Positions 574 to 36,232 of a DNA stretch of 64,000 nucleotides are shown here, piece after piece. Each line of letters starts with the position of its first letter. The first letter of the stretch is position 1. Source of the stretch: Rhodomicrobium lacus. Its GTDB lineage: Bacteria > Pseudomonadota > Alphaproteobacteria > Rhizobiales > Rhodomicrobiaceae. The notes beneath the pieces were generated by a model, which saw nothing but the letters and a program-made list of their open reading frames with translations, was not told the origin of the DNA and searched no databases. The translations under genes and the position numbers were made by a program. The stretch lies in NCBI RefSeq assembly GCF_003992725.1, contig NZ_RZNF01000003.1:186001-250000 (forward strand), read 5' to 3'.

Positions 574-1911
<1,338 letters not shown>

Positions 1912-2002
1912 AACTGAAAGGCGCGCGTCTCATTGTGGGACGCGCCGTCTTTTCGGCGGTCTGGCCGCCGGCATCGCTCCTTTCTCAGGCCACGGAGCGA
2001 AC

Positions 2003-2034
2003 AAAAAAGGCCGGAACCGCTTCTCGGTCCGGCC
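2003..2034 (-). terminator. Intrinsic terminator for the leftward transcript
   Basis: A GGCCGG..CCG stem with a CTTCT loop lies at 2009-2034. On the minus strand it is followed by a T-run (the plus-strand AAAAAA at 2003-2008). It sits between convergent gltA and the small membrane-protein gene and would stop the leftward aap-side transcript; the stem could also serve gltA. Confidence 0.75.
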
Positions 2035-2093
2035 TGATCTGATGATATAAGGCGGATCGCGCGTTCTCTGGAACGCGCTTCGCTTGATGACGA

Positions 2094-2663
2094 TTAGACG
2101 TCGAAGTGCAAAAGCGCCCAAAGGCCCAGAAGCAGGGCACCGGCACCGCCACCATAGGCGAGCGTCGTATTGAGTTGCTCAGGCGCGAGGTGAAGATACT
2201 GGAACGCGCCGAAGCCAGCGCCCGCGCCCAGAAGTGCGCCGACCAGCGTCAGCACCACGAACTTCACCCAGCCGCGGAAGAAGCCCTTCTTGACCGGCTC
2301 GCCCTCAACCTTCTTGCGTCCCAAGGGAGGAAGAGCGCGGCGATTGGGATTGACGGCCTTCTTTGGCGCGGGAGCCTTCTCGACGGGTGCAACCGGGGCC
2401 TCAACCGCCGGAGCGACCTCGGGAGCCTCGGCAACCGCCTCGACGGACGGGGCGGGAGCAGCGGCCGGAGCTTCCTCCGCTGCGGGGGCGGCTTCCGCGT
2501 GCCAATGCGGCGGAAGGGGCGGCTTGCGGCCGGGCTCGAATGCGGGAGCCTTGGGTTCTTCCACCACTTGAACGGGTTCAGCCGATGCCTCGGCCGGTTT
2601 TGGCGCGGCCCCGCTTGCCACGCGTTGTGCTTCTTCCTGCTGACGCACGAGATCTGGATCCAT
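2094..2663 (-). CDS. Ala/Pro-rich protein with two C-terminal membrane segments, unknown function
   Basis: The 189-residue product is not a family I recognise. Residues 1-115 are low-complexity, rich in Ala, Pro and Glu (PAEEAPAAAPAP-like runs), followed by a basic patch (NRRALPPLGRKKVEG). Two hydrophobic segments occupy roughly 134-156 and 165-187, so the long disordered tail would hang off a membrane hairpin. The start at 2663 is chosen because GGGGG lies just upstream; a longer reading frame continues into aapM without a better site. It begins 23 bases after aapM ends and could be co-transcribed with it, in the place where an aapP ATPase gene would be expected. Confidence 0.7.
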   Translation of the reverse strand: MDPDLVRQQEEAQRVASGAAPKPAEASAEPVQVVEEPKAPAFEPGRKPPLPPHWHAEAAPAAEEAPAAAPAPSVEAVAEAPEVAPAVEAPVAPVEKAPAPKKAVNPNRRALPPLGRKKVEGEPVKKGFFRGWVKFVVLTLVGALLGAGAGFGAFQYLHLAPEQLNTTLAYGGGAGALLLGLWALLHFDV

Positions 2664-2686
2664 AACGTATTCCCCCGGAAAAGACG

Positions 2687-3763
2687 TTAGCGTCGGCCCT
2701 CGGCCGTTACGCGCTCTAAATATGCGCTGACTGCTGCAATAGCATAGCACAGGCTCCAAAAGACAAGGGCCGCGAAAGCGTAGCCAGTCAATGTCGTCGT
2801 CGATGCAGACCATGCCGGATCAGTGGCGGCGAGTTGTATCATGCCGAGGAAGTCAAATAATCCAATGACTAGGACCAGGGTCGTGTCTTTCAAAAGGCCG
2901 ATGAACGTCCCGGCAATACCCGGCAGGGCGCTACGAATTGCCTGTGGAAGAATAATGAGCGCGAGGATTTGTGAATAGCGCAGGCCTAGCGCTCGCCCCG
3001 CTGTAACCTGATTTTCGGGCACGCTCTGGAGGCCACCTCGAATCGTCTCCGCCATATAGGCGCTAGCGAACACCGCGATGGCGAAAAGAGCGCGCGCAAG
3101 CTTGTCGATGCTTGCCCCCTCCGGCAGGAAAAGCGGCAGCATCACAGCCGCCATGAACAGCACCGTCACGAGCGGCACCCCGCGCCAGAATTCGATGAAA
3201 CAGATCGCAAGCCAGCGCGGCACAGGCCAGCTCGACCGCCGCATCAGCGCGAGCACGATGCCGAGCGGCAGAGAGGCCGCGATCCCGGTGTAGGACACGA
3301 GGAGCGTCAAGGTGAGGCCGCCCCATACGTCCGTTGGGACGGGCGCGAGCAGGACGCCGTCGCCGGCAACCAGAAGGAACGCGAGCGGCAGTCCGAGCGC
3401 CACGGCTGCGGCGTAGCCAGCCAACCCGACGCGACGGCGCGCGAGGAACGCCGCCACCAGGAGCGCGGGCGGAAGCAGCATCCCCGTCATCGCTCGCCAT
3501 AGCTCGTTGTCGGGATAGCGGCCGAAAACGAACTGCTTCAGCTTCGCGGCGACGAACGGCCAGCAAGCGCCATCGGTCGCCCGGCAGGCCGAGACATCGC
3601 CGCTCCACGCCGCGCCGAACACGAGGAACGACAGCGCGCCGTAAGCGGCGAAGGCGAGCGCCACGCCGAGCGCGAGCGTCACGGCGGCGTTCACCGCACG
3701 CCCGAGCAGGCGGCGAAACGGCGGCATATCGGCGGAGAAACGCGGCGCGTCGGGCATTGTCAT
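2687..3763 (-). CDS. aapM: General L-amino-acid ABC transporter, permease AapM-type
   Basis: This is a 358-residue inner-membrane permease of the His/Glu/Gln/Arg (HAAT) class. The second half carries the binding-protein-dependent permease signature, with an EAA-like loop near ENQVTAGRALGLRYSQILALIILPQAIRSALPG, which contacts the ATPase. Several hydrophobic helices and a large periplasmic insertion rich in Cys and Trp (around residues 50-80) match AapM rather than the shorter HisM-type. Its start overlaps the stop of aapQ in ATGA, so the two are translationally coupled. Substrate range (broad L-amino acids) is inferred from the Aap family. Confidence 0.88.
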   Translation of the reverse strand: MTMPDAPRFSADMPPFRRLLGRAVNAAVTLALGVALAFAAYGALSFLVFGAAWSGDVSACRATDGACWPFVAAKLKQFVFGRYPDNELWRAMTGMLLPPALLVAAFLARRRVGLAGYAAAVALGLPLAFLLVAGDGVLLAPVPTDVWGGLTLTLLVSYTGIAASLPLGIVLALMRRSSWPVPRWLAICFIEFWRGVPLVTVLFMAAVMLPLFLPEGASIDKLARALFAIAVFASAYMAETIRGGLQSVPENQVTAGRALGLRYSQILALIILPQAIRSALPGIAGTFIGLLKDTTLVLVIGLFDFLGMIQLAATDPAWSASTTTLTGYAFAALVFWSLCYAIAAVSAYLERVTAEGRR

Positions 3764-4833
3764 GCACGGATCCTCGCATTCTGCCAGTTGAGAAGCGCGG
3801 CCGTGGCGAGCGACAACGTGAGATAGACGCCCATGGTCAACGCCATGATCTCCACCGCCTGCCCCGTCTGCGCGAGCGTCGTACCGGCGAAGATCGACAC
3901 GAGATCCGGGTAGGCGATGGCCACCGCGAGCGAGGAATTCTTGGTGAGGTTCAGATACTGGCTCGTGAGCGGCGGCACGACGAGACGCAGGGCTTGCGGA
4001 AGAACGACGTAGCGCATCGCCTGCAAGCCGGTCAGCCCCAACGCGGCGGCCGCCTGCCCCTGCCCTCGCGCGACCGACTGAATGCCCGCGCGCACGATCT
4101 CGGCGATATAGGCGGCGGTGTAGATCGCAAGTGCGGCGACGAGCGCGACGAATTCAGGGATGAGGCGCAAGCCGCCGGAGACGGAGAGCCCGCGCGCTTC
4201 GGGCCAGACGATGTGCGTCATCGCCAATGCGGCGATGAGTGCGACGGCCCCGCCGACATTGGCGAAGACGCGCCACCGCGCTTTCAAGACCAGAGCCGCC
4301 GCGAACAAGGCCACCGCCGCGACGAAGAACCAGCCGCCGCCTTGCGGTTCCGGCAAGAACAGCCCGCGATTGTTGAGATACGCGCCCGCGAACTCGAAGC
4401 CTGTGCGTGGCGGCGGCAACTGGCGCAACACACCGAAGTAAAAGAAGAACAGGATCAGCAGCAGCGGCAGATTGCGGAACAGCTCGACATATCCGGCGGC
4501 GACAGCGCGCACCAGGCGATTCGGCGCAAGCCGCGCGACGCCTATGCTGAAGCCGATGACGGTGGCGATGGCGATACCGATGGCCGCTACAAGCAGCGTA
4601 TTGAGAAGGCCGACGACGAAAGCGCGGCCGTAGGTGGATCTTTCGTCAAACGGAATGAGCGTTTGCAGCACGCTGAAACCGGCAGGCTCCGACAGGAAGC
4701 CGAGGCCGAAATGCACGGGCAACCGCCCGATGTTCGTCCATGCCGTAAAGACGAGCCACCCGGCAAACGCCACCACTGCGGCGAGAAGCGCAGCCTGTAT
4801 CCAGAAGCGTGCCGCGCGTCCCGTCTCTTCCAT
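3760..4833 (-). CDS. aapQ: General L-amino-acid ABC transporter, permease AapQ-type
   Basis: A 357-residue membrane protein forming the partner permease of AapM. It has a long first segment with an extra loop and then the conserved permease core (IAEIVRAGIQSVARGQGQAAAALGLTG and a following VVLPQALRLVVPPLTSQYLN), the cytoplasmic coupling loop for the ABC ATPase. The two permeases are predicted to form a heterodimeric channel fed by AapJ. It starts 40 bases after aapJ and overlaps aapM by four bases. No frame break or missing motif was seen. Confidence 0.88.
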   Translation of the reverse strand: MEETGRAARFWIQAALLAAVVAFAGWLVFTAWTNIGRLPVHFGLGFLSEPAGFSVLQTLIPFDERSTYGRAFVVGLLNTLLVAAIGIAIATVIGFSIGVARLAPNRLVRAVAAGYVELFRNLPLLLILFFFYFGVLRQLPPPRTGFEFAGAYLNNRGLFLPEPQGGGWFFVAAVALFAAALVLKARWRVFANVGGAVALIAALAMTHIVWPEARGLSVSGGLRLIPEFVALVAALAIYTAAYIAEIVRAGIQSVARGQGQAAAALGLTGLQAMRYVVLPQALRLVVPPLTSQYLNLTKNSSLAVAIAYPDLVSIFAGTTLAQTGQAVEIMALTMGVYLTLSLATAALLNWQNARIRA

Positions 4834-4873
4834 TTGCCTTTTGCGTTTCCGTGGAAGTGATGTCGGTGAAAAG

Positions 4874-5890
4874 CTATCGCACCGGTGGCGCGAACAGGAT
4901 GCCGCCGTTGTTCCAGAGCTTGTTCAGCCCGCGCTCGATCTTGAGCGGGCTTTGCTGGCCGAGATTGCGATCGAAAATCTCGCCATAATTGCCGACCGCG
5001 CGGATGGCCTTCAGCGCCCAGTCCTTGTCCAGACCGAGCGCCCGCCCGTAATCGCTTTCCGCGCCGAGCAGCCGCCGCACACCGGGGGCCGCGTCGGTTC
5101 GGGAAAGCTTGTCCGCATTGGCTTTCGTTACCGCCAGTTCCTCCGCGTCGATGAGCGCGAACAGCGTCCAGCGCACGAGACTTTCCCATTGCGGGTCGTT
5201 CTGCCTGACGGCCGGGGCGAGCGGCTCTTTTGAAATGAGATCCGGCAGGATCACGTGATCGTCCGGCTGGGCGAGCTTGATGCGCTGCGCCGACAGGCTC
5301 GACGCGTCGGTGGAATAGACGTCGCAGCGCTCCGCCTCGTAAGCCTTGAGGGCCTCGTCCGACTTCTCGAAGGCGACGATCTTGTAGGGCATGGAGCGAG
5401 CCCGGAAGAAATCCGCGATGTTGAGTTCGGTCGTCGTGCCGGTGTTGGTGCACACCTCCGCGCCAGACAGTTCGAGCGCACTTTGCACTTCGAGCTTCTT
5501 GCGCACCATAAGCCCCTGCCCGTCGTGATAGATCACGCCGACGAAGGTGATTCCAAGCGCCGTATCGTTCTGCATCGTCCAGGTCGAGACGCGCGAAAGC
5601 ACGTCGATCTCGCCCGACTGGAGCGCCGTGAAGCGCTGCTTCGATGACAGCGGCACGAAATTTACCTTCGATGCATCGTCGAAGATGGCGGCGGCGACCG
5701 CGCGGCAGAAATCGACATCGAGACCGGCCCAGTTGCCGCTCGCATCCGCCGAGGAGAAGCCCGCGAGCCCCTGCGTGACGCCGCAATTCAGCTTGCCGCG
5801 CGCCCTGACCTCGTCAAGCGTCCCCGCCTGAGCGCCGACACAGTGAAGTGCAAGTGCAAGAGCGCAATATAGAATCCCGTGACGCTTCAT
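4874..5890 (-). CDS. aapJ: General L-amino-acid ABC transporter, periplasmic binding protein
   Basis: The 338-residue product begins with a signal peptide (MKRHGILYCALALALHCVGAQA, likely cut after AQA), then the family-3 solute-binding fold: LNCGVTQGLAGFSSADASG, a DVDFCRAVAAAIF segment and a long C-terminal lobe. The conserved Cys residues near positions 36 and 62 and the TWTMQNDT region match AapJ/BztA proteins. It would deliver amino acids to AapQ/AapM. As first gene of the leftward operon its promoter should lie between 5891 and 6041, shared with the divergent metC. Confidence 0.9.
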   Translation of the reverse strand: MKRHGILYCALALALHCVGAQAGTLDEVRARGKLNCGVTQGLAGFSSADASGNWAGLDVDFCRAVAAAIFDDASKVNFVPLSSKQRFTALQSGEIDVLSRVSTWTMQNDTALGITFVGVIYHDGQGLMVRKKLEVQSALELSGAEVCTNTGTTTELNIADFFRARSMPYKIVAFEKSDEALKAYEAERCDVYSTDASSLSAQRIKLAQPDDHVILPDLISKEPLAPAVRQNDPQWESLVRWTLFALIDAEELAVTKANADKLSRTDAAPGVRRLLGAESDYGRALGLDKDWALKAIRAVGNYGEIFDRNLGQQSPLKIERGLNKLWNNGGILFAPPVR

Positions 5891-6041
5891 CCTGTCTCCT
5901 GGTTCGAGGCTCGCTGCGGGGGGCTTCCGTCAGGCTGATGTCCTTGACTTGGCAGCATTAAGGCAAAACGCGGGCTTGCGGTCTAACTTGACGCCCCATC
6001 TTGAATGGTGTGAACAAAAGACTTTTACGAGGCGAGGCGAC

Positions 6042-7220
6042 ATGACAGGCCAACACGGACGCGACGAGGATATTTCCGTCGAGACGGAAGCGACACAGCT
6101 CGGTCGCGATCCGCATCGCTATTTCGGCTTCGTGAACATGCCCGTCTATCGCGGTTCGACGGTCTTGTACCCGAACGCCGAGAGCCTCGAATCGCGCGAC
6201 GTGCCCTATACTTACGGGCGTCCATCGAATCCGACCACCCGCGCGCTCGAAGAGGCGCTGACGAAGCTCGAAGGAGGCGCGCGAACCTTTCTCGCGCCAT
6301 CCGGCCTCTCCGCCGTGTCGACGCTGCTTCTCACCTACGCCGAAGCGGGCGGGCATATCCTCATCACCGACAGCGCCTACTTCCCGACCCGGCGCTTCGC
6401 GAGCAAGGTGCTGAAGCGGCTCGGCGTGGAGGTCGAATATTACGATCCGCTGATCGGCGGCGGCATTGCGGCGCTGATCCGGTCGAACACGAAGCTCGTT
6501 TTCACCGAGTCGCCCGGCTCGCAGACCTTCGAGGTGCAGGACATCCCGGCGATCTGCGCCGCCGCGCGCGGGCGCAATGTGCCCGTCGCCATCGACAACA
6601 CATGGGCGACGCCGATCTTCCTCCGCGCCTTCGATCTCGGCGTGAACATCACGGTGACGGCCGCGACGAAGTACATCGTCGGCCATGCGGATTCGCTTCT
6701 CGGCGCGATCACCTGCGACGCAGCGACGGCCCCGGCGGTCGCCGCCACGCATGAGACGCTCGGCCTTTGCGTAAACGGCGAGGATGCATTTCTCGCTTTG
6801 CGCGGCCTTCGCACGTTGCCGGTGCGGCTTGAGCGGCATTACAAATCCGCGCTCGCGATGGCCGAATGGCTGGCGGCGCGCCCCGAAGTCGCCCGCGTCA
6901 TTCATCCGGCTCTCCCCGGCTGTCCCGGCCACGACCTCTGGAAGCGCGACTTTCTCGGCGCAAGCGGGCTTTTCACCATCGTCTTGAAGCCGCAGCCGAA
7001 GGAAGCCGTACGGCGTTTCCTCAACGCGCTTCAGATTTTTGGAATGGGCTATTCGTGGGGCGGTTATGAAAGCCTCATCGTGCCGTTCGACTGCTCGCAT
7101 TCGCGCACGGCGACGAAGTGGCAGGCGGAAGGCCCGGCGCTGCGCCTCCACATCGGCCTCGAAGACGTGGGCGACCTGAAGCGCGACCTCGAACGCAGCT
7201 TCGCGGCGCTGGCGGGCTGA
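6042..7220 (+). CDS. metC: Cystathionine beta-lyase (PLP-dependent)
   Basis: A 392-residue Cys/Met-metabolism PLP enzyme of the trans-sulfuration family, expected to split cystathionine into homocysteine, pyruvate and ammonia. The PLP lysine is about K210 in AATKYIVGHADSLLGA, preceded by the IDNTWATPIFLRAFDLG motif; the C-terminal GYSWGGYESL segment is typical of proteobacterial MetC. The ATG at 6042 follows GAGGCGAGG; an in-frame codon 93 bases earlier is less likely because MTGQHGRDE matches usual family starts. It is divergent from aapJ. Gamma-synthase or O-acetylhomoserine activities cannot be fully excluded from sequence. Confidence 0.88.
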   Translation: MTGQHGRDEDISVETEATQLGRDPHRYFGFVNMPVYRGSTVLYPNAESLESRDVPYTYGRPSNPTTRALEEALTKLEGGARTFLAPSGLSAVSTLLLTYAEAGGHILITDSAYFPTRRFASKVLKRLGVEVEYYDPLIGGGIAALIRSNTKLVFTESPGSQTFEVQDIPAICAAARGRNVPVAIDNTWATPIFLRAFDLGVNITVTAATKYIVGHADSLLGAITCDAATAPAVAATHETLGLCVNGEDAFLALRGLRTLPVRLERHYKSALAMAEWLAARPEVARVIHPALPGCPGHDLWKRDFLGASGLFTIVLKPQPKEAVRRFLNALQIFGMGYSWGGYESLIVPFDCSHSRTATKWQAEGPALRLHIGLEDVGDLKRDLERSFAALAG

Positions 7221-7375
7221 TCGCCTGCTGCGCTCGCTCAGAATCAGGTCGGTCGTTAACGCAGGCTGACCCGCGAGAACATCCGTGGAAAACGGTCGCA
7301 GTTTTTGTTTCACGCCGGTTTCACGACGAACGAATCGAATACACTTGCGCTCTTGGTCAAGATGGAGCTTTGCGA

Positions 7376-9205
7376 GTGCGTTCCCTGTCCCTGCCGTTAC
7401 AGCATCCTCGCGCGCAATCGGCGTTTCTCGGCGTGGAGCGTTCGGCGCGCGGGCTCAAATGGATCGAGCGCCTGGCGCCGCAGGATGCGCATATCGCGGC
7501 GGCGATCGCGCAGCGCCATAACCTTCCGGAAATCATCGGCCGCATCCTTGCCGCGCGCGGCGTCTCGCTCGACGACGTGGCCGACGTGCTCAACCCCACG
7601 CTGCGCGCGCTCTGCCCCGACCCGTCGACCTTCACCGACATGGACAAGGCCGCCGAGCGCATCGCGCGCGCCATCGAGACGGGCGAGCGCATCGCCATCT
7701 TCGGCGACTACGACGTGGACGGCGCGTCGTCCTCGGCGCTGATGAAGCGCTTCCTCGCGTGGCATGGGCTCGACGCGCGCATCTACATCCCCGACCGCAT
7801 AACCGAGGGCTACGGCCCGAACGGCCCCGCCATCACTCAACTCATCGAGGACGGCGCGCAGCTCATCCTGACGGTGGACTGCGGTTCGACCAGCTTCGAG
7901 GCGCTCGACGTCGCGGCGAAACGGGGCATCGATGTCGTCGTGGTGGATCATCATCAGGTGAACGAGGAGCTTCCGGCTGCCTATGCCGTGGTGAACCCGA
8001 ACCGGCAGGATTGCCTGTCTGCGCAAGGCCACCTTTGCGCGGCAGGCGTGACATTCCTCCTGTGTGTCGCGGCCCAGCGGCGGCTTAGGGCTAAAGGCGC
8101 CTACACGAAATCCCCCGCGCCGGACCTGCTCGGCTGGCTCGACATCGTGGCGCTGGCGACGGTGTGCGATGTGGTGCCGCTTTCCGGGGTCAACCGCGCT
8201 TTCGTGGTGCAGGGGCTGAAAGTGCTCCGCAATCGCCGCAATCCGGGCCTTCGCGCGCTCGCCGACGCGGCGGGCGTGAACAAGCCGCCCTCGCCCTATA
8301 CGCTCGGCTTCGTGCTCGGGCCGCGCATCAACGCAGGCGGGCGTATCGGCGACGCGAGCCTTGGCGCACGGCTGCTTGCGTCCGAAGATGAAATCGAGAC
8401 GCGCCGCATCGCCGAAACGCTCGACCGCCTCAACCGCGAACGACGCGAGATCGAAATCAAGACGGTCGAGGAAGCGGCCGCCTGGGCCGACCGCACGCTG
8501 ATGGAAGACCCGTCCGCGCCGATCATCATCGCGGGTTCGCCCGCCTGGCATAAGGGGCTTGTCGGTCTTGCGGCGAGCCGCCTCACCGAGCGGTTTCAGA
8601 GGCCGTGTCTGATCTTCTCGCAGGACGAGGAAGCGGGCGAATCCACCGGCTCCGCGCGCTCGGTATCGGGCGTCGACATCGGCGCGGCGGTGCGCGGTGC
8701 GGTTGAAGCCGGCGTCGCGAAAAAGGGTGGCGGCCATACGATGGCGGCGGGCATCACCGTCGATACGGCGCGGCTGCACGAGCTGGCGGCCTTTCTGCGC
8801 GCGGCGCTCGACCCCGCCTATCGCGTTGCAAGCGCCGCGCCCGAGTTGCCAATCGACGGTGTGCTCAGGCCACGCGCGGCGACGCTCGATTTCTGCGCAC
8901 AGCTTGAGGCGGCTGGCCCTTACGGACAGGGCAATCCCGCGCCGCGCTTCAGCCTCGCCTCCGTTCGCCCGACCATGATCAAGGAAATTTCCGGCGGCCA
9001 CCTGCGCCTTGCTCTTCAGGATATGGACGGCAGCCAGATCAGCGCGGTCGCTTTCCGTGCGGCGGAAACCGAGATCGGCGCGGCGCTCGCCGCCGGGCGC
9101 GACCTCGCCTGCCACGTGGCGGGCCGCATCGAGCGCGACGAATGGGGCGGCAAGAGCCGCATCGAGTTCCACATCGAGGATGTCGCGCCCGCGAATGCGC
9201 GCTAG
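7376..9205 (+). CDS. recJ: Single-stranded-DNA 5'-3' exonuclease RecJ
   Basis: The 609-residue product is a DHH-family nuclease acting in recombination and mismatch repair. The motif AIFGDYDVDGASS (about residue 110) and VVDHHQVNEELP (about 191-193) bind the metal ions; the DHHA1 domain shows KKGGGHTMAAGITV, and a C-terminal OB-like region follows (RPTMIKEISGGHLRLALQD). A GTG at 7376 is preferred, with GGAG eight bases upstream; the open frame extends further but that part overlaps metC and looks non-coding. Its TAG stop coincides exactly with the left edge of a composite palindromic repeat. Confidence 0.93.
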   Translation: MRSLSLPLQHPRAQSAFLGVERSARGLKWIERLAPQDAHIAAAIAQRHNLPEIIGRILAARGVSLDDVADVLNPTLRALCPDPSTFTDMDKAAERIARAIETGERIAIFGDYDVDGASSSALMKRFLAWHGLDARIYIPDRITEGYGPNGPAITQLIEDGAQLILTVDCGSTSFEALDVAAKRGIDVVVVDHHQVNEELPAAYAVVNPNRQDCLSAQGHLCAAGVTFLLCVAAQRRLRAKGAYTKSPAPDLLGWLDIVALATVCDVVPLSGVNRAFVVQGLKVLRNRRNPGLRALADAAGVNKPPSPYTLGFVLGPRINAGGRIGDASLGARLLASEDEIETRRIAETLDRLNRERREIEIKTVEEAAAWADRTLMEDPSAPIIIAGSPAWHKGLVGLAASRLTERFQRPCLIFSQDEEAGESTGSARSVSGVDIGAAVRGAVEAGVAKKGGGHTMAAGITVDTARLHELAAFLRAALDPAYRVASAAPELPIDGVLRPRAATLDFCAQLEAAGPYGQGNPAPRFSLASVRPTMIKEISGGHLRLALQDMDGSQISAVAFRAAETEIGAALAAGRDLACHVAGRIERDEWGGKSRIEFHIEDVAPANAR

Positions 9206-9367
9206 TGGAGCGAATTTCACATTTGAGTCCCGATGGCTGCGCGCTCTCGCTCAAATGTCAAATTCAAAAACTCCAATCAAATCATGATGTTGGTAGTGGT
9301 CCTTCGATTCCACATTTGCTCGCAAGCGTGCTGCAAACGGATGCAAATGTCGGAATCGGACCACTAG
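9202..9367. repeat. Composite palindromic repeat, copy 1 (unit B then unit A)
   Basis: Unit B (9202-9275) has edges CTAGTGGAG and CTCCA and inner arms around CACATTTGAG / CTCAAATGTC. Unit A (9294-9367) runs from TAGTGGTCC to GGACCACTAG, with arms CACATTTGC / GCAAATGTCGGAATCG. The same two units, in opposite order and orientation, occur at 62171-62341, and with a decayed B unit at 50880-51055. The left edge supplies the recJ stop codon. Confidence 0.85.
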
Positions 9368-9560
9368 ATGCCGTTCCGATTGAATCGCGATCAGGTCGGG
9401 GAAACTCCTTCCTCGAAGTTCAGAGGGGGACGGGCAGAAACTCAGCGTGAGCGACACCTGACCGGACGTTAACGTGTCGCGCCGTCCGTGTACGGTTATT
9501 CTCTTGGCGGTGCCATATTTCAGGAGTAATTCTTCCCGAATTGCGGGAGGCTTCGTCACC

Positions 9561-10256
9561 ATGGCAGCGGGAATATCACCGGGCCTTGTTCGTGCCCTGA
9601 TCAAACCGGCGGTTGGTTCAGGCTTTTATGTCGCCCTTGCCTTTCTGGGAGCCGGCAGCCTCGATTGGAACCGCGGCTGGCTTTATGCCGCCGTGTTTGT
9701 CGGCGTGTCGGTCGCAGGCAGTCTGATCGTGCGTTTCGCAAGCCCCGGACTTCTGGAAGAACGCGCAAAAGGCATTCGCAAGGACACGAAGCCTTTCGAC
9801 AGGCTTTTCTATGCCCTGTTCCTGCCCGTCGTCCTCTTCTATCCCTTTCTGGCCGGACTGGATGCCGAACGCTTTTCGTGGGCACCGTTGCCCTGGTGGA
9901 CCATCTATCCGGGCGTTCTTTGCTTCCTGGCGGGTTCGCTGATCACGACGTGGACGATGGTCGTGAACCGCCACGCCGAAAGTACCGTCCGCATCCAGAG
10001 CGATAGAAGCCACGCGGTCGTCACCGACGGCCCTTACACCGTCGTCCGCCACCCGATGTATGTGGGGACGCTGCTGGGGTTGCCCGGCACCGCGCTCATG
10101 CTCGGTTCGGGCTGGGCGCTCCTGCCGATGGCCCTCGTGATGATGCTGTTTGTATGGCGCACCGCACGCGAAGATCGCGCCCTGCGGCAGGAACTCGCCG
10201 GATACGAAGACTATGCCGCGATCACGCACCATCGATTGGTGCCGGGACTCTGGTAG
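9561..10256 (+). CDS. Isoprenylcysteine carboxyl methyltransferase (ICMT)-like membrane protein
   Basis: A 231-residue integral membrane protein of the ICMT/PEMT-like methyltransferase superfamily. The diagnostic C-terminal segment is present: VVRHPMYVGTLLGLPG, followed by hydrophobic helices and a REDRALRQELAGYEDY tail, which in the family binds S-adenosylmethionine. Four to five hydrophobic helices precede and follow it. The natural substrate of bacterial members is mostly unknown; lipid or small-molecule methylation is possible. The ATG at 9561 has GGGAGG upstream; an in-frame GTG at 9474 would add a poorly conserved 29 residues. Upstream lies repeat copy 1; downstream is the leader of the nitrogenase-like cluster. 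Confidence 0.75.
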   Translation: MAAGISPGLVRALIKPAVGSGFYVALAFLGAGSLDWNRGWLYAAVFVGVSVAGSLIVRFASPGLLEERAKGIRKDTKPFDRLFYALFLPVVLFYPFLAGLDAERFSWAPLPWWTIYPGVLCFLAGSLITTWTMVVNRHAESTVRIQSDRSHAVVTDGPYTVVRHPMYVGTLLGLPGTALMLGSGWALLPMALVMMLFVWRTAREDRALRQELAGYEDYAAITHHRLVPGLW

Positions 10257-10693
10257 CCGTTTATCCGCGAGATCCAGCCTGTCCGGCTGGAAGCGAAACT
10301 GCCGGTTCGCCGCCGCCCCTTGCAACCCGGGACGATTTCATGATCCGGCTTCAGCAGTCGGGGGCTCCAGAATTGGCCCGCGATAGTGCTCGTCCAAATG
10401 TTGAGCGGAAACGGCAAGCGTCTCGCGCCATGAGCGCCCCCGGAAAGAAAAACTAACTGCATGTCATGCAGGCACGAAAATTACGCTCTTCCTGACACGT
10501 CACTTTCGCCTCCGGCGTAAAAATTATTCTTGATAAATTCGACGGAAACGGTCAGCTTTCTGAAGGTTTCCACCCGCAGCGGTTGCTCAGAGAGCCGCTG
10601 ATCGCTGGTTCGGGAACGCTCGCCATTCGGCAGGAGCGCGTCGCGGCGTAACGCGGCGAGACAATACGGGCAACCAATTAACCGGGAAAGCTT
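10257..10693. other. Leader region of the nitrogenase-like cluster
   Basis: 437 bases without a gene. The right 240 bases probably hold the control region of the cluster. Visible elements are a perfect palindrome at 10457-10471 (CTGCAT-GTC-ATGCAG), a hairpin at 10577-10600 (arms CAGCGG/CCGCTG) and an A+T-rich patch near 10517-10540. No convincing sigma-54 -24/-12 element (TGGC-N9-TTGC) and no NifA site were found, which argues against classical nif control. Confidence 0.5.
10457..10471. promoter_or_regulatory. Candidate operator palindrome upstream of the nitrogenase-like cluster
   Basis: CTGCAT and ATGCAG arms are perfect around GTC, in the only long non-coding stretch before the cluster. 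It could bind a dimeric regulator. No cognate regulator gene is adjacent, so the role is inferred from position only. Confidence 0.35.
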
Positions 10694-11047
10694 ATGAAAG
10701 TCGCCATAGGCACGAGCGACGGCATAGCCGTCACCGAGCATTTCGGTTACGCGCTGCAATTCCAGATCTGGGATTTTGAGGACGGCCGCTTCCGGCTTCT
10801 GGAAAAACGGCGCAACCTTCCCGCATGCGGTGCCGCGCGCGACGAACGGACGGTTCGCGATCCGATGGACGTGTCCGTGGACCTTGTGAGCGATTGCCGC
10901 GCGGTCCTCGTTTCACGCATCGGCGAATGCGCGGTGAACCGGCTCGACGCGCTCGGCATCCTTGCCTTTGAAACCGAAGATACGATCGAACACGCACTGG
11001 CCGAACTTGCCGAAAGCGGCCTCCTTGTCGAAAGGGAAGCAGCGTGA
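10694..11047 (+). CDS. NifX/NifB-C-terminal-type cofactor-binding protein
   Basis: The 117-residue product matches the dinitrogenase iron-molybdenum cofactor-biosynthesis domain (NifX, VnfX, NafY and the NifB tail). It opens with KVAIGTSDGIAVTEHFGYALQFQIWDFEDGRF, the family's characteristic first strand, and ends with a GILAFETEDTIEHALAELAESG helix. Known members carry metallocluster intermediates during nitrogenase maturation. Here it is first in the cluster and overlaps the nifB-like start by GTGA, so it is translationally coupled to it. In many nitrogen fixers this domain is fused to NifB; here it is separate. It would accept the cluster made by the neighbouring radical-SAM protein (inference). 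Confidence 0.82.
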   Translation: MKVAIGTSDGIAVTEHFGYALQFQIWDFEDGRFRLLEKRRNLPACGAARDERTVRDPMDVSVDLVSDCRAVLVSRIGECAVNRLDALGILAFETEDTIEHALAELAESGLLVEREAA

Positions 11048-11985
11048 CCGCCCCTTCCGACCCGCCCGCCCTTTCCTGCGCAATTCGCGCCATGAAGGAG
11101 ACGGCAGCGCCCGCCTTTCCGGCGCTCGAAGGGCGTCATCCCTGTTTCAGCACCACCGCCGAGGGGCACGCCGCCGCCGCGCGCCTGCATCTGCCGGTCG
11201 CGCCGACGTGCAACATCGCATGCGCTTTCTGCCGCCGCGATTTCAACCGCCGCGAACAGCGCCCCGGCGTGGCCACGCGGCTCCTTTCGCCCGACGAAGC
11301 CGTCGGCATCGTGGAACGCGCGCTCGCGCTGTTGCCGAACCTCGCCGTCGTCGGCATCGCCGGGCCGGGCGACCCGTTGGCCACATCGCATGCGCTCGAC
11401 ACCTTCGCCCGCGTGCATGAACGCTGGCCGCACCTCGTGCTGTGTCTGTCGACAAACGGACTCGCGTTGCCGCAACATGTCGACGCGCTCGCGGCGGCTG
11501 GCGTGGAAACCGTGACGGTGACGGTAAACGCCGTCGATCCCGAAATTCAGGCGCAGATCACGCCGAAGATCGCGTGGCAGAGAAAGCGCGTCGACGGGAT
11601 CGCAGCCGCCGAGCGGCTGATCGCCAATCAGCTGGATGGGATCGAGAAGGCGGCGCAGCTCGGGCTCACGATCAAGATCAACACGGTGCTGATTCCCGGC
11701 GTAAACGACCGCCACATCGGCGATGTCGCGGCCCGTGTCGCCGGGCTCGGCGCGCACCTCATCAACATCATTCCGCTGATCCCGCAGCACAAGCTCGCGC
11801 ATCTGAAAGAGCCCGGAATGATCGAGCGTCAGCGCGCCAGAGCCGAGGCGTCGAAGCACCTTCGGGTCTTCACGCATTGCCAGCGTTGCCGCGCCGATGC
11901 GTGCGGCATCCCCGGCGTCAGCGACCACACCAACGAGCTTTACGGCGATGGCCTCGCGGCCGAGCCGACCTTTTCGCACGGCTGA
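11044..11985 (+). CDS. NifB-like radical SAM cofactor-maturation protein (MarB-type)
   Basis: A 313-residue radical-SAM protein of the NifB family. It shows the NifB hallmark HPCFS (residues 32-36), the SAM-cluster motif CNIACAFC (Cys56, 60, 63) and the C-terminal HCQRCRADACG (Cys279, 282, 287), which supplies ligands for the K1/K2 clusters in NifB. NifB fuses two [4Fe-4S] units with a carbide to give the NifB-cofactor. It lacks the fused NifX domain, which is the separate upstream gene. Translation starts at a GTG overlapping that gene. Its presence implies that the downstream D/K proteins hold a complex Fe-S cofactor, unlike BchNB or CfbD systems. Confidence 0.88.
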   Translation: MTAPSDPPALSCAIRAMKETAAPAFPALEGRHPCFSTTAEGHAAAARLHLPVAPTCNIACAFCRRDFNRREQRPGVATRLLSPDEAVGIVERALALLPNLAVVGIAGPGDPLATSHALDTFARVHERWPHLVLCLSTNGLALPQHVDALAAAGVETVTVTVNAVDPEIQAQITPKIAWQRKRVDGIAAAERLIANQLDGIEKAAQLGLTIKINTVLIPGVNDRHIGDVAARVAGLGAHLINIIPLIPQHKLAHLKEPGMIERQRARAEASKHLRVFTHCQRCRADACGIPGVSDHTNELYGDGLAAEPTFSHG

Positions 11986-12015
11986 ACAACTGCCTAAACC
12001 CTGTCAGGAGAGAAG

Positions 12016-12870
12016 ATGTCCAAGAAACTCAAGCAGATCGCCATCTACGGCAAGGGCGGAATCGGCAAATCGACAACAACGTCGAACATCAGCGCGGCGC
12101 TCGCCGAAGCGGGCTACAAGGTCATGCAGTTCGGCGCCGACCCGAAGGCCGACTCGACCAACACCCTGCGGGGCGGCGAATATATTCCGTCCGTGCTCGA
12201 CCTTCTGGCCGAACGCCGCCGTGTCGACGCCTATGAGGCGATCTTTCAGGGCTTCGGCGGCATCTACTGCGTCGAAGCGGGTGGCCCACAGCCGGGCGTG
12301 GGCTGCGCGGGGCGCGGCATCATCACCGCGGTCGAGCTTCTGAAGCAGCAGCGCGTGTTCGAGGAACTCGACCTCGACTACGTCATCTACGACGTTCTCG
12401 GCGACGTGGTATGCGGCGGCTTCGCCGTGCCGGTGCGCGAGGGCATCGCCGAACACGTGTTCACGGTGTCGTCGTCCGACTTCATGGCGGTCTACGCAGC
12501 GAACAACCTGTTCAAGGGCATCGAGAAATTCTCGACGGCTGGCGGCGCGCTACTTGGCGGCATCATCGCCAACTCGATCAACACCGACTTCCAGCGCGAG
12601 ATCATCGACGACTTCGCAGCTCACACGAAGACGCCCATCGTCCAGTATGTGCCTCGCTCGCTGACCGTGACACAGGCCGAGCTTTCGGGCCGGACCACCA
12701 TCGAGGCCGCGCCGAAGTCCGAGCAGGCGGAGGTCTATCGCGCCCTCGCGCGCCGCATCGCCGACCATACCGAATCCAAGGTGCCGACACCCCTCGGTCC
12801 GCTCGAACTGCGCGAATGGTCCGCGAAATGGGCCGACCGGCTCGTCGAGCAGGAACGCGCTGCCGCTTAA
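12016..12870 (+). CDS. NifH-like reductase component (MarH-type)
   Basis: A 284-residue homodimeric Fe-protein homologue that delivers electrons to the D/K component with ATP hydrolysis. Visible are the P-loop YGKGGIGKST (residues 11-20), the bridging [4Fe-4S] ligands Cys97 (GVGCAGRG) and Cys133 (DVVCGGFAVP), and Arg100, the position that is ADP-ribosylated in NifH by DraT. A GGAGAG site precedes the ATG. It lies 30 bases after the nifB-like gene and 37 before the first nifD-like gene. Spacing and cysteines match NifH and also BchL-like proteins; neighbours decide for the mar/nif-like type. Confidence 0.9.
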   Translation: MSKKLKQIAIYGKGGIGKSTTTSNISAALAEAGYKVMQFGADPKADSTNTLRGGEYIPSVLDLLAERRRVDAYEAIFQGFGGIYCVEAGGPQPGVGCAGRGIITAVELLKQQRVFEELDLDYVIYDVLGDVVCGGFAVPVREGIAEHVFTVSSSDFMAVYAANNLFKGIEKFSTAGGALLGGIIANSINTDFQREIIDDFAAHTKTPIVQYVPRSLTVTQAELSGRTTIEAAPKSEQAEVYRALARRIADHTESKVPTPLGPLELREWSAKWADRLVEQERAAA

Positions 12871-12907
12871 CGACCAGTTCGGCAAACTCAACGGAGCCCG
12901 TGAGTCC

Positions 12908-14437
12908 ATGACCATCAACCTGAAAACCTCCACCGTCGAAACGCGCGAGCAGCGCCTCGGCACGATCATCGGCTGGGATGGCAAGGCGAGCGCGCTTGCG
13001 GAGGAATCCGCTTATGCGCGCGGCGAGTGCGGCGGCTGTGGCGCGAGCGGGCGCGGCGGAGCGAAGGCGCGCCGCGTCTGCGAACTGACCGGACCGTTCA
13101 CGCAAGGGTCCGTCTGCTCCGAGCAGATGGTGGAATGCCAGGCCGGCAACATTCGCGACGCGTTGCTGATCCAGCATTCGCCCATCGGCTGCGGCGCGGG
13201 CCAGGTGATCTACAACTCCATCTATCGCAACGGCCTCGCGATGCGCGGCCATCCCGTGCAGAACATCCGCTTCATCTCGACCAATCTGCGCGAGCGCGAC
13301 ATGGTCTATGGCGGCGCGGACAAGCTTGACGCGGCCATCCGCGCGGCGTTCGAGCGACACGCGCCCAAAGCGATCTTCATCGCCACATCCTGCGCGAGCG
13401 GCATCATCGGCGACGACGTGGAGAGCGTGGCGAGGCATGCCGAAGCCGACCTCGGCATCCCCGTCATTCCGCTTCACTGCGAAGGCTTCGCCTCCAAGCA
13501 CTGGAGCACGGGCTTCGACGCGACGCAGCACGGCATCCTGCGTCAGATCGTGCGCAAGAACCCGACGAAAAAGCAGGAAGATCTGGTCAACGTCATCAAC
13601 CTCTGGGGCTCCGACGTCTTCACGCCGATGCTGAAGGAACTCGACCTTCGCGTGAACTATGTGATCGACATGGCGACGGTCGAGGAACTGGCGCAGATGT
13701 CCGAGGCGGCGGCAACGGTCACGTTCTGCTACACGCTCGGCACCTATCTCGCTCAAGGCCTCGAACAGGAATACGGCGTCCCGCAGATCCGCGCACCGCA
13801 GCCTTACGGCTTCGCGGGGACCGACGCATGGCTTCGCGAAGTCGCACGCGTCACGGGGCGCGAAGACAAGGTCGAAGCCTTCATCGAGCGAGAGCACGCC
13901 CGTGTCCGCCCGAAGGTGGAGGAACTGAAAAAGAAGCTGGCGGGGCTCAAGGGCTACATCGCCACCGGCTCGGCCTACTCACACAGCCTCATCGGTGTGC
14001 TTCGCGAAATCGGCGTGCAAGTCGACGGCTCGCTCGTGTTCCATCACGACCCGGTCTACGACAGCGAAGATCGGAAGCAGGACACGCTCGACCATCTCAT
14101 CGAAAACTATGGCGAGGTGGAGCACTTCACGGTCGGCAACCGCCAGCAGTTTCAATTCTATAACCTGCTGCAGCGGGTGAACCCGGACTTCATCATCATC
14201 CGCCACAACGGGCTTTCGCCCCTTGCCGCGCGCCTTGGCATCCCGGCGATCCCGCTCGGCGACGAACTGCATGCCTTCGGTTATCAGGGCATGATCAATC
14301 TCGGCGAAGCCATTCTGGCGGTGCTTCAGCATCGGAAGTTCCATCAGGACATCGCAGGCCGCGTGAAGCTTCCCTACAAGAAATCCTGGCTTGCCGAAAA
14401 AGACCCGTTCGCCCTCGCACGCGTGGCGGCGGAGTAG
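12908..14437 (+). CDS. NifD-like catalytic alpha subunit, copy 1 (MarD-type)
   Basis: A 509-residue nitrogenase component-1 alpha homologue. P-cluster-type ligands are Cys70 (GSVCSEQM), Cys95 (HSPIGCGAG) and Cys162 (TSCASGIIGDD); their spacing copies NifD Cys62/88/154. Cys274 in FCYTLGTYLAQGLEQEYGVP aligns with the FeMo-co ligand Cys275 of NifD (CYRSMNYISRHMEEKYGIP). An N-terminal CGGC (Cys41/44) is not found in NifD. The closest described function is methylthio-alkane reductase, which splits C-S bonds of compounds such as 2-methylthioethanol to give methanethiol and a hydrocarbon. It is followed after nine bases by a same-length paralogue. Confidence 0.88.
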   Translation: MTINLKTSTVETREQRLGTIIGWDGKASALAEESAYARGECGGCGASGRGGAKARRVCELTGPFTQGSVCSEQMVECQAGNIRDALLIQHSPIGCGAGQVIYNSIYRNGLAMRGHPVQNIRFISTNLRERDMVYGGADKLDAAIRAAFERHAPKAIFIATSCASGIIGDDVESVARHAEADLGIPVIPLHCEGFASKHWSTGFDATQHGILRQIVRKNPTKKQEDLVNVINLWGSDVFTPMLKELDLRVNYVIDMATVEELAQMSEAAATVTFCYTLGTYLAQGLEQEYGVPQIRAPQPYGFAGTDAWLREVARVTGREDKVEAFIEREHARVRPKVEELKKKLAGLKGYIATGSAYSHSLIGVLREIGVQVDGSLVFHHDPVYDSEDRKQDTLDHLIENYGEVEHFTVGNRQQFQFYNLLQRVNPDFIIIRHNGLSPLAARLGIPAIPLGDELHAFGYQGMINLGEAILAVLQHRKFHQDIAGRVKLPYKKSWLAEKDPFALARVAAE

Positions 14438-14446
14438 CCTCGGGCC

Positions 14447-15976
14447 ATGGCAATCAACCTCAAGACGCCGACGGTCGAAACGCGCGAGCAGCGTCTCGGA
14501 ACCATCATCGGCTGGGACGGCACCGCGTCCGCGCTCGCCGAGGAGTCCGCGTTCTCGCGCGGCGACTGCGGCGGATGCGGACCAAGCGGACGGGGCGGCG
14601 GCAAGGCGCGCCGCGTCTGCGAACTGACGGGGCCCTTCACGCAAGGCTCCGTCTGTTCCGAGCAGATGGTGGAGACGCAGGCGGGTAATGTCCGCGACGC
14701 GGTGCTGATCCAGCATTCGCCGATCGGCTGCGGGGCGGGTCAGGTCGTCTACAATCAGCGCTTCCGCAACGGCTGCAAGGCGCGTGGCCTTCCCGTCCGC
14801 AATGTCCGTTTCATCTCCACGAACCTGCGTGAGCGCGACATGGTCTATGGCGGCGCGGACAAGCTCGACGCCGCCATCCGCGCGGCCTTCGAGCGGCACA
14901 AGCCCGCCGCAATCTTCATCGCAACGTCCTGCGCGAGCGGCATCATCGGCGACGACGTCGACAGCGTGGCGCGCCATGCCGAAGCCAAGCTCGGCGTGCC
15001 GGTCATCCCCGTGCATTGCGAGGGCTTCAAGTCGAAGCACTGGAGCACCGGCTTCGACGCGGCGCAGCATGGCGTCCTTCGCCAGATCGTCCGCAAGACC
15101 CCCGCGAAAAAGCAGGACGATCTCGTCAACGTCATCAACCTTTGGGGTTCGGACGTCTTCACGCCGATGCTGAAGGAACTCGGCCTCCGCGTGAACTACG
15201 TGATGCCGCTCTCATCCGTCGAGGAACTGGCGCAGATGTCGGAGGCGGCGGCGACGGTGAGTTTCTGCTACACGCTCGGCTCGTATCTCGGCACGGCGCT
15301 GGAACAGGAATTCGGCGTGCCGCAGATCAAGGCGCCTCAGCCCTACGGCTTTCCGGGCACCGACGCGTTGCTGCGCGAACTCGGCCGCGTGACAGGCCGC
15401 GAGGACCGGGCGGAGGCTTACATTGCGCAAGAGCATGCCCGAGTGAAGCCGAAGATCGCGGCGCTTCGCGAGAAGCTCCGCGGCGTCAAGGGTTATGTTG
15501 CGACAGGGTCGGCCTACTCGCACGGCCTCATCGAAGTGCTGCGCGAGCTTGGCGTCGAGGTGGACGGCTCGCTCGTGTTCCATCACGACCCGGTCTACGA
15601 CAGCGAAGATCCGAAGCAGGACTCGCTCGCGCATCTTCTCGAAAATTACGGCGATGTCGACTTCTTCACCGTGGGTAATCGCCAGCAGTTCCAGTTTTAC
15701 AACCTGCTCCAGCGCGTAAATCCGGACTTCATCATCATTCGCCACAACGGTCTGGCGCCGCTTGCCGCCCGCGTCGGCATCCCCGCGATTCCGCTCGGCG
15801 ACGAGCACCATGCGCTCGGCTATCAGGGCATGATCAATCTCGGCGAGTCCGTTCTCGCCGTCCTGCGCCATCGCAAGTTCCATCAGGACATCGCGAGGCA
15901 CGTTCGCCTTCCCTACAAAACGTCGTGGCTACGCGAGAAGGATCCCTTCGCGCTTGCCCGCGCCCAAGCCAGCTAA
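14447..15976 (+). CDS. NifD-like catalytic alpha subunit, copy 2 (tandem paralogue)
   Basis: Also 509 residues and alignable to copy 1 end to end without a gap, at roughly 80 percent identity by eye. All metal ligands are kept: Cys41/44, Cys70, Cys95, Cys162 and Cys274. Differences cluster just after the Cys95 ligand (QRFRNGCKARGLP against SIYRNGLAMRGHP), around residues 253-257 and 454-457 (EHHAL against ELHAF), and in helix 309-345. Copy 2 has an extra Cys near residue 110. This is a tandem duplication. Copy 2 may be a second catalytic subunit with other substrate preference or a NifE-like scaffold; symmetry with copy 1 favours the former. Confidence 0.86.
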   Translation: MAINLKTPTVETREQRLGTIIGWDGTASALAEESAFSRGDCGGCGPSGRGGGKARRVCELTGPFTQGSVCSEQMVETQAGNVRDAVLIQHSPIGCGAGQVVYNQRFRNGCKARGLPVRNVRFISTNLRERDMVYGGADKLDAAIRAAFERHKPAAIFIATSCASGIIGDDVDSVARHAEAKLGVPVIPVHCEGFKSKHWSTGFDAAQHGVLRQIVRKTPAKKQDDLVNVINLWGSDVFTPMLKELGLRVNYVMPLSSVEELAQMSEAAATVSFCYTLGSYLGTALEQEFGVPQIKAPQPYGFPGTDALLRELGRVTGREDRAEAYIAQEHARVKPKIAALREKLRGVKGYVATGSAYSHGLIEVLRELGVEVDGSLVFHHDPVYDSEDPKQDSLAHLLENYGDVDFFTVGNRQQFQFYNLLQRVNPDFIIIRHNGLAPLAARVGIPAIPLGDEHHALGYQGMINLGESVLAVLRHRKFHQDIARHVRLPYKTSWLREKDPFALARAQAS

Positions 15977-15987
15977 CAGGAGACTTC

Positions 15988-17373
15988 ATGGCCCTTCTCG
16001 CCTTGAAACCCCGCGCTGCGGCCGAGACAAAGCCGGAAGCCGCGGAGGCGACACACATCGAACTCGTGCGCTATGTGTGCGCCATCGGCGCGATGCAGAG
16101 CGCGGCGGCGATCCCGCGCGTCGTTCCCATCACCCATTGCGGGCCGGGCTGCGCCGACAAGCAATATATGAACATCGCGTTCTACAACGGCTATCAAAGC
16201 GCAGGATACGGCGGCGGTCCCGTCGTGCCCAGCACGAACGCATCGCAGCGCGAAGTGATCTTCGGGGGCGCCGACCGGCTTCGCGAACTGATCGAATCCT
16301 CGCTGAAGGTCATCGACTCGGATCTGTTCGTCGTGCTGACGGGGTGCATCCCGGATCTCGTCGGCGACGACGTGGGCTCGGTCGTCCGCGACTTCCAGAA
16401 ACGCGGCGTTCCGATCGTCTACGCGGAGACCGGCGGCTTTCGCGGCAACAACTTCACCGGCCATGAAGCGGTCACGCAGGCCATCATCGAGCAGTATCTG
16501 GAGCCTTGGGACGGCACGCGCGAAGCGAAAACCGTGAACCTGTGGTCGTTGCTGCCCTATCACAACACGTTCTGGCGCGGCGACCTGGAAGAGATAAAGC
16601 GGCTGCTGACAGGCATCGGCCTCAAGGTCAATGTGCTGTTCGGCCCGGATAGCGCCGGCGTTTCGGAATGGGGCGATATCCCGAAGGCAGGCTTCAACCT
16701 GGTGCTGACGCCTTGGCTGAACCTTTCGACCGCAAAGCTGCTTCAGGAGAAGTACGACCAGCCATTCCTGCACATCCCCGTACTGCCGATCGGCGCGAGG
16801 CAGAGCGCGGCCTTCCTGCGCGAGGTTGCGGCTTTCGCCAAGCTGCCCAAGAAGCGGGTCGAAGCTTTCATCGAAGCCGAAGAGCTGCGTTATTACAACT
16901 ACATCGACGGTTTCACCGATTTCTATTCCGAATATTGGTGGGGCTTGCCTGCGAAATTCGCCGTGGCCGGCGACAGCGCCTATAACCTCGCGCTGACGAA
17001 ATTCCTCGTGACGCAGCTCGGTCTGATCCCGGCAAAGCAGATCGTGACCGAAGACCCGCCGCTCGAATATCGCGACGCGATCCGCGACGAGTTCCGCCGC
17101 ATCGACCATGACGTTTCGGTGGAGGTTGAGTTCATCGAGGACAGCTACCTCATCCACCAGTCGCTCCGCGCCGCCGATTTCGGCCAAAAGCCGCCGATCA
17201 TCTTCGGCACGACCTGGGAGCGCGACCTCGTGAAGGAAATGAAGGGCTCGCTCGTCGAAGTCGGCTTTCCGGCTTCCTATGAGGTCGTGCTGTCACGAAG
17301 CTATGTCGGTTATCGGGGTGCGCTTGCCCTTCTCGAACGCATCTACAGCACGGTGGTCAGCCACAGCGCGTAA
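15988..17373 (+). CDS. NifK-like beta subunit (MarK-type)
   Basis: The 461-residue partner of the D subunit. Cys31 (VCAIGAMQS), Cys55 (HCGPGCADKQ) and Cys120 (TGCIPDLVGDD) match the beta-side P-cluster ligands Cys70/95/153 of NifK in order and spacing; Cys51 is an additional Cys in the second motif. The ATG at 15988 is chosen, 11 bases after the preceding stop, with AGGAGA before it; an in-frame codon at 15925 lies inside the upstream gene. Only one K gene follows two D genes, so either both D proteins share it or one D is used otherwise. A GC-rich hairpin 64 bases downstream may end the transcript. Confidence 0.88.
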   Translation: MALLALKPRAAAETKPEAAEATHIELVRYVCAIGAMQSAAAIPRVVPITHCGPGCADKQYMNIAFYNGYQSAGYGGGPVVPSTNASQREVIFGGADRLRELIESSLKVIDSDLFVVLTGCIPDLVGDDVGSVVRDFQKRGVPIVYAETGGFRGNNFTGHEAVTQAIIEQYLEPWDGTREAKTVNLWSLLPYHNTFWRGDLEEIKRLLTGIGLKVNVLFGPDSAGVSEWGDIPKAGFNLVLTPWLNLSTAKLLQEKYDQPFLHIPVLPIGARQSAAFLREVAAFAKLPKKRVEAFIEAEELRYYNYIDGFTDFYSEYWWGLPAKFAVAGDSAYNLALTKFLVTQLGLIPAKQIVTEDPPLEYRDAIRDEFRRIDHDVSVEVEFIEDSYLIHQSLRAADFGQKPPIIFGTTWERDLVKEMKGSLVEVGFPASYEVVLSRSYVGYRGALALLERIYSTVVSHSA

Positions 17374-36037: not shown

Positions 36038-36232
36038 CCCTCTGTCACGGAACCTGAGAGATTTCACCGGCACGGCCGCGAGGCGGAAGGCCGGTCTTTA
36101 CCCCATCGGTGAGCCGCCTTGGCGGGCGGCTGCTTTCCAGAGTGCTGTCTGCGCGCGGTCCTTTTTGCCTGAGAGTTTCCGGGGCGGTTGCTCCTTCGGC
36201 GCCAGCCTGGGCTGGTCTCTCCCGCATGCATC
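36038..36232 (-). promoter_or_regulatory. Tandem glycine riboswitch
   Basis: Read on the minus strand, two aptamers follow each other. Aptamer 1 runs from GCGGGAGAGACC to ACTCTCAGGCAAAAAGGACC (about 36205-36155 at its core), and aptamer 2 from CAGCACTCTGGAAAGC to ATCTCTCAGGTTCCGTGACAGAG (about 36140-36040). Both carry the conserved CTCTCAGG and GGA(C/A) elements. The structure ends about 50 bases before gcvT, so glycine should switch on the glycine cleavage operon, as known for this class. Confidence 0.9.

Follow-up and report, generated by a model that had tools for sequence, protein, structure and literature searches.

What would a nitrogenase-like enzyme do with two alpha subunits and a single beta subunit? 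The question is raised by an operon of the methylthio-alkane reductase (MAR) type in Rhodomicrobium lacus, which lies in a stretch of 64,000 nucleotides (contig NZ_RZNF01000003.1, positions 186,001 to 250,000 of the forward strand; the window hereafter) on contig C3 of a 3.88 Mb genome, G000. The operon is compact, occupies 10694-17373 of the window on the plus strand and runs in the order X-B-H-D1-D2-K. An earlier note had proposed that D1 and D2 are a duplicated nifD-like gene that would allow two enzyme forms, either with different substrates or with one form catalytic and the other a scaffold. We favour, at a probability of roughly 0.48, the reading that D2 is a second catalytic alpha subunit, which would share MarK, MarH and MarB with D1 and would have a changed substrate choice.

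Two MarD copies in front of one MarK

The two D genes and the genes and spacers around them are listed below. The reference structure, 9FMG, is the MAR entry of Rhodospirillum rubrum (PMC12552129), and the operon used for comparison is that of G004, a genome of the same genus on one contig of 4014469 bases, which reads X-B-H-D-K with a single D.

12908..14437, plus strand: first marD gene (D1), for an alpha subunit with Cys73 (MarD numbering); match to 9fmg_A, E 6.8e-267; 96% identical to the single MarD of G004; ligands kept
14438..14446, plus strand: D1-D2 spacer of nine bases; with the D1 tail, a new junction relative to G004
14447..15976, plus strand: second marD gene (D2), for an alpha subunit whose active site is changed; match to 9fmg_A, E 9.7e-264; ligands kept, Cys73Thr
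15977..15987, plus strand: D2-K spacer, like the D-K spacer of G004
15988..17373, plus strand: marK, the only beta-subunit gene; match to 9d9u_C, E 3.5e-226, with the query taken from codon 2

The marK start is the ATG at 15988, which is preceded by GGAG; the mechanical open reading frame begins at 15925. The sequence of 9d9u_C is that of the K chain of 9fmg. Each D gene encodes 509 amino acids from ATG to stop without an internal stop. The two proteins align without a gap over 509 columns at 82% identity (79.8% at the DNA level), in good agreement with the 80 percent estimated earlier by eye, and the nine bases between the end of D1 at 14437 and the start of D2 at 14447 bear out the tandem arrangement. 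The cysteines predicted in the earlier note to be ligands, Cys70, 95, 162 and 274, are indeed present in both copies and equal Cys66, 91, 158 and 270 of R. rubrum MarD, to which D1 and D2 are 76.1% and 75.5% identical. In the R. rubrum enzyme, the P-cluster is bound by MarD Cys66, Cys91 and Cys158 together with MarK Cys32, Cys56 and Cys121, and the [Fe8S9C] cluster by MarD Cys270 and His429 (PMC12552129). The equivalents of the three MarK cysteines are all found in the window K when it is aligned to 9d9u_C, and both D1 and D2 retain the Fe8 ligand His429 and the adjoining Arg428.

The Nei-Gojobori (NG86) estimate between D1 and D2 gave a dN of 0.117, a dS of 0.81 and a dN/dS of about 0.14, a value that is only rough given the high dS and the strong codon bias. 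This ratio and the intact frames argue that both copies are used. On its codon pattern, D2 is kept intact under purifying selection while diverging at the active site. Its GC content at third codon positions (GC3), 0.831, is near that of D1, H and K, which we also count in favour of a functional second subunit. D1 is 83-85% identical to the MarD of Rhodopseudomonas, so that its distance to that genus is about the same as its distance to D2. Gene conversion between D1 and D2 was considered and rejected: no near-identical stretch was present, third-position identity in 40-codon windows ranged from 0.45 to 0.75 with a mean of 0.61, and the longest exact match was 49 bases.

The active site of the second copy

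The surroundings of the MAR active site include Cys73, Gln74, His194, Trp195, Phe199, His375 and Arg428, according to PMC12552129. The first six of these lining residues are all found in D1, and five of the six in D2. Residue 77 of D2, at MarD position 73 in R. rubrum numbering, is a Thr in place of the Cys, a change that the earlier note had overlooked. D2 keeps Gln74, His194, Trp195, Phe199, His375 and Arg428, in line with a catalytic subunit. Position 73 is Cys in 21 rows and Thr in 12 rows of a 33-row alignment; the Thr rows are D2, all ten group-2 rows (see below) and one distant row (L057), a distribution that takes three changes on the tree by parsimony. MarD belongs to a fork of 14 rows, of which 13 keep Cys73 and only D2 has lost it; this, too, we count for the favoured reading.

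The remaining differences were placed against seven other MarD proteins, namely four from Rhodopseudomonas, one from the genome G369, that of R. rubrum and one from a genome of the Bacillota search. D2 departs from the 332 columns that are invariant among them at 21 positions, and so does D1. Five of the D2 changes fall within residues 97-107, after the P-cluster Cys91 (Ile97Val, Ser100Gln, Ile101Arg, Leu106Cys and Ala107Lys). When the changes were placed at random, 156 of 20000 draws contained a window this dense (179 in an initial run of 20000 draws), whereas the maximum of three changes per such window in D1 was reached in 13849 of 20000 draws. The unusual changes of D2 spare the ligands themselves. 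The segment 97-107 aligns with the Arg-Arg that follows the P-cluster Cys in the NifD of the same genome; Arg96 of A. vinelandii NifD faces the iron-molybdenum cofactor (FeMoco).

These differences bear on whether D2 merely does the job of D1, as added dosage, as a back-up or with a different optimum, its substitutions being near-neutral. Such redundancy seems to us rather doubtful. An identity of 82%, identical ligands and a shared operon are what it would lead one to expect, and G004 manages without D2 in an operon otherwise alike. Redundancy accounts poorly, however, for the loss of a Cys73 kept in the 13 other rows of the fork and for a clustering after Cys91 that is unmatched in D1, and also for the fact that D2 stayed intact though it diverged from D1 as far as D1 did from the Rhodopseudomonas MarD.

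Several observations weigh against a changed substrate choice. Position 73 taken alone is a single change, and Thr73 could be tolerable without a new substrate. When two more distant MarD proteins are added, the clustering becomes weaker: residues 97-107 hold 2 of 14 changes, with a P of 0.043 that is uncorrected for the later choice of the segment. An AlphaFold2 model of D2 built from a seven-row alignment was poor, with a mean predicted local distance difference test (pLDDT) score of 50.6, and was dropped. The roughness of dN/dS has been mentioned. The arrangement occurs in one genome only, and G004 is without D2.

The Thr of D2 recalls a sister family of proteins. Group-2 D-K pairs, which occur in the same genome (L017), in Rhodopseudomonas and in others of the order, are 50-55% identical to D1 and D2, have the same ligands and carry Thr73 like D2. 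Unlike D1 and D2, group-2 D proteins form a separate clade (100/100), have Asn74 and Trp199 and come with their own K. A bolder version of our favoured reading, which we hold only tentatively, is that the alpha subunit alone was exchanged as a specificity module: D2 would then be a distinct C-S-bond reductase on a common beta subunit, cofactor and electron supply, would have reached the Thr73 site of group 2 independently and may share the substrate type of group 2.

Placement and origin of D2

Are both copies MarD, and how old is the second one? In a 16-row tree, D1, D2 and R. rubrum MarD lie together on one side of a branch supported at 100/100. In a 33-row tree, D1 and D2 fall inside a fork of nine proteobacterial MarD rows (87/91), with group 2 separate (100/100). 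The trees were built without NifE and BchN rows; L021, L022 and L023 (group-2 D) and L043 (a longer copy of L026) stand outside them, and L035-L040 repeat loci already used. The NCBIfam nifE and nifD models scored both copies far below their cut-offs, with 178.0 bits for D2 and 176.1 bits for D1 against a cut-off of 505.1 for the NifE model TIGR01283. The duplicated gene is therefore an alpha-subunit (D-type) gene by both trees, as had been supposed.

The lone MarD of G004 is orthologous to D1, with an identity of 96%. A recent, species-specific duplication was rejected, since trees in which D1 and D2 are sisters to the exclusion of G004 gave p values of 0.0005, 0.0003 and 0.00028 and far lower in the approximately unbiased (AU) test, and the copies are therefore not a recent duplicate. 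Further back, protein trees and codon positions 1 and 2 tolerate D2 both with D1 and G004 and with Rhodopseudomonas (AU p 0.2-0.5 where tested). In the tree from all DNA positions D1, D2 and G004 group at 98/98, and the grouping of D2 with Rhodopseudomonas is rejected at an AU p of 0.007; third positions may share composition, so this tree falls short of being decisive. Eleven columns are exclusive to D1, G004 and D2 (three of which coincide with or adjoin a small insertion), as compared with three exclusive to D2 and Rhodopseudomonas and six to D1, G004 and Rhodopseudomonas. The end of D2, from its final codons through the spacer to K, is similar to the junction between D and K in G004, a similarity not shared by the D1 tail and the D1-D2 spacer.

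The simplest history would be a tandem duplication in situ, in the lineage of the genus before its two species, that of the window and that of G004, parted. The date within the genus lineage comes from the all-position DNA, and the proteins alone do not settle the place. D2 would later have been lost in G004, perhaps through recombination near the 3' ends. On these trees, D2 is older than the split from G004 whichever placement holds. The earlier note had left a choice between copies in separate clades across species and a lineage-specific duplication; the all-position DNA points to a genus-specific event older than the G004 split, and the proteins do not decide.

The competing origin, a transfer of D2 from another lineage to a place beside D1, would be compatible with an isozyme function and is in our view improbable. 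Protein trees put D2 outside D1 and G004, two of them with a weak grouping with Rhodopseudomonas (80/74 and 74/72), and codon positions 1 and 2 likewise do not fix its place. Set against this are the 98/98 grouping and the AU rejection in the all-position DNA, the eleven private columns against three, the G004-like junction in which D2 ends and a GC3 that matches the neighbouring genes.

Operon components and the possibility of a scaffold

The genes upstream of D1 are as follows.

10694..11047, plus strand: X, NifX-like domain gene, first of the operon, 117 amino acids; matches to TIGR01290 nifB and TIGR02663 nifX, both below cut-off
11044..11985, plus strand: marB, NifB-like radical SAM protein (SAM, S-adenosylmethionine), short form without a NifX domain; TIGR01290 nifB at 276.3 bits (cut-off 343.65), profile positions 11-293
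12016..12870, plus strand: marH, Fe protein (reductase component); top solved-structure match 9fmg_D, E 4.5e-161

The X and marB frames overlap by 4 bases, and the marB translation carries the CxxxCxxC motif CNIACAFC. X aligns to positions 331-438 of TIGR01290, the NifX-like end of that profile, and has a counterpart in G004 at the same position with 94% identity. The NifX-like domain, which is C-terminal in standard NifB, is thus a separate gene here, upstream of a short NifB-like gene.

Among solved structures, the best matches of D1, D2, H and K are to the MAR of R. rubrum, which makes the operon one of the mar type; marH and a NifB-like marB stand in it together with D and K. The mar-type assignment of the earlier note is upheld, and profile and structure matches agree with its count of one H and one K. 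Compared with MarBHDK of R. rubrum (PDB 9FMG; PMC12552129), the window has the same four components, all cluster ligands and Arg428-His429. It differs from the R. rubrum system in its two D genes, the second without Cys73, where one D is described, and in the NifX-domain gene that opens the operon. Arg428-His429 might be a hallmark of MAR according to the same source, but the pair is found in 33 of 33 D rows, those of group 2 and of remoter nitrogenase-like D proteins among them, and is therefore wider than MAR; Cys66, 91, 158, 270, His429 and Arg428, each in 33 of 33 rows, likewise do not single out MAR.

Isethionate reductase (Isr) was another candidate for the operon. IsrBHDK of Rhodobacter capsulatus is a group IV nitrogenase-like system of radical SAM protein, H, D and K for anaerobic assimilation of organic sulfur, as is the operon type in the window, and its IsrB is described as BciD-like, not NifB-like (PMC11423573). 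We rejected this identity on account of the NifB-like B of the window and of the matches of D, H and K to MAR chains; the exclusion uses the description of IsrB, without an aligned Isr sequence.

Could D2 be non-catalytic, either in the manner of NifE, as a scaffold on which the [Fe8S9C] cluster is held, or as a regulator competing for K? NifEN has been hypothesised to derive from a duplication of nifDK (PMC9147875), and the unusual changes of D2 avoid the ligands. On the other hand, the cluster in MAR is of the NifB type, [Fe8S9C], and contains neither Mo nor homocitrate (PMC12552129), the single-D mar operons examined here are without E or N, D2 groups with MarD and retains the electron-transfer cysteines, and no second K-type partner adjoins it. 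We consider a non-catalytic D2 quite improbable. R. rubrum MAR was produced in a strain from which nifD and anfHDGK had been removed; its description does not mention a removal of nifEN, so that NifEN may have helped there (PMC12552129). As for the two enzyme forms proposed in the earlier note, Cys73Thr makes different substrates seem more plausible, and the scaffold alternative found no positive support.

Regulatory elements were also sought. A sigma-54 consensus with at most 2 mismatches matched 24 times in the window as compared with 25.5 expected, with none between the gene at 9474-10256 and the operon. An Rfam scan near the operon gave no match at gathering score; one match just upstream, with E 0.12 and 20.5 bits, is below its family's gathering score of 47. 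Elsewhere in the window, a glycine riboswitch aptamer matches at 36146-36234 on the minus strand with 66.7 bits (gathering 32).

Distribution of the doubled gene

Among all genomes searched, which do not amount to a census, two close MarD copies were found only in the genome of the window. The searches covered 5 genomes at the level of the genus, 397 for the order, 385 for the class and 398 for the phylum, together with sets of 14 and 20 genomes around G369, sets of 67 and 299 around G1099 (Acetobacterium), and 11 genomes individually; they overlap, and at most three candidates were scored per genome in the order, class and phylum searches and at most five in one other. Loci L071-L075 stand outside the analysis. 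A MarD match at E 1e-60 was present in 2 of the 5 genomes of the genus, its own included. The tree has 30 further D genes, and their neighbours within about 1.5 kb or more included no adjacent second D; nine of the 30 are true MarD genes, each from a different genome and each single, in agreement with the one D that the earlier note ascribes to described mar operons. A contig scan with two peptide patterns, which may omit records of or near the genome itself, gave five loci, and a plasmid collection gave two records, both with distant relatives only, at 42-43% identity. Among the papers listed in searches of open-licence literature, none has a listing that describes a doubled MarD.

Several D genes with a single H have been described in Heliophilum fasciatum, whose NflDK comprise five D-K pairs with one nifH-like gene (PMC9147875). 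We count this likeness in favour of our reading, with the difference that H. fasciatum multiplies whole D-K pairs and the window doubles D alone on one K. One genome of the Bacillota search, G1340, has on contig C15 (5834-18060) a cluster of three distinct nitrogenase-like D genes spanning about 12 kb, each with a K-type gene downstream.

Other nitrogenase-like loci

The genome of the window has 17 PF00148 genes and six full-length NifH-type genes. By arrangement only, four PF00148 genes on C7 are nifDKEN, a pair on C4 is an alternative nitrogenase and a pair on C2 is bchNB; bchXYZ is also present. At L069 (G000:C12:1280000-1296000, about 1147-10724), an ATP-binding cassette (ABC) transporter with an NMT1-type binding protein, two permeases and an ATPase lies on one strand with a variant radical SAM gene, H and a diverged D and K. 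This locus looks like isrBHDK with an uptake system, a better Isr candidate than the window operon.

A group-2 D-K pair, 52-53% identical to D1 and D2, lies at L030 (G000:C12:100000-119999, 9691-13893, minus strand) directly behind an O-acetylhomoserine sulfhydrylase gene, and no X, H or B was found within that 20-kb stretch. In G369, contig C4 (L032, 4252-10891, minus strand) carries a group-2 operon in the order D-K-X-B-H, and a SAM-I/IV riboswitch match of 54 bits (gathering 41.1) lies on its strand at a distance of about 1.4 kb upstream, which hints at methionine-controlled expression of this nitrogenase-like enzyme. MarD and group-2 D occur together in G369 and in four Rhodopseudomonas genomes, an association that we count for the favoured reading; in the latter four, a single contig carries both, with 7 to 16 kb between the group-2 and marD starts. 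Hence the group-2 D-K pair of the window's genome may draw on the B and H of its mar operon.

A proposed sharing of one beta subunit by two alpha subunits

How would the operon work with D2 as a second catalytic subunit? D1 and D2 would both pair with the single MarK, both D-K forms would receive the [Fe8S9C] cluster from MarB, and MarH would supply electrons to both. The products that MAR forms from naturally occurring sulfur compounds are methane, ethane and ethylene, and its mode of substrate binding is an open question (PMC12552129). D2-K could be a second C-S-bond reductase for another thioether or a related methylated sulfur compound, with Thr73 and the changed helix of D2 reshaping the pocket or channel and hence the substrate range.

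If the favoured reading is true, nature would have carried out a swap experiment here, in which cluster supply and electron donor stay the same and two alpha subunits that differ in one active-site residue and a nearby helix take turns on common B, H and K. The operon would, moreover, show at an early stage the kind of subunit duplication that is thought to have diversified this enzyme family.

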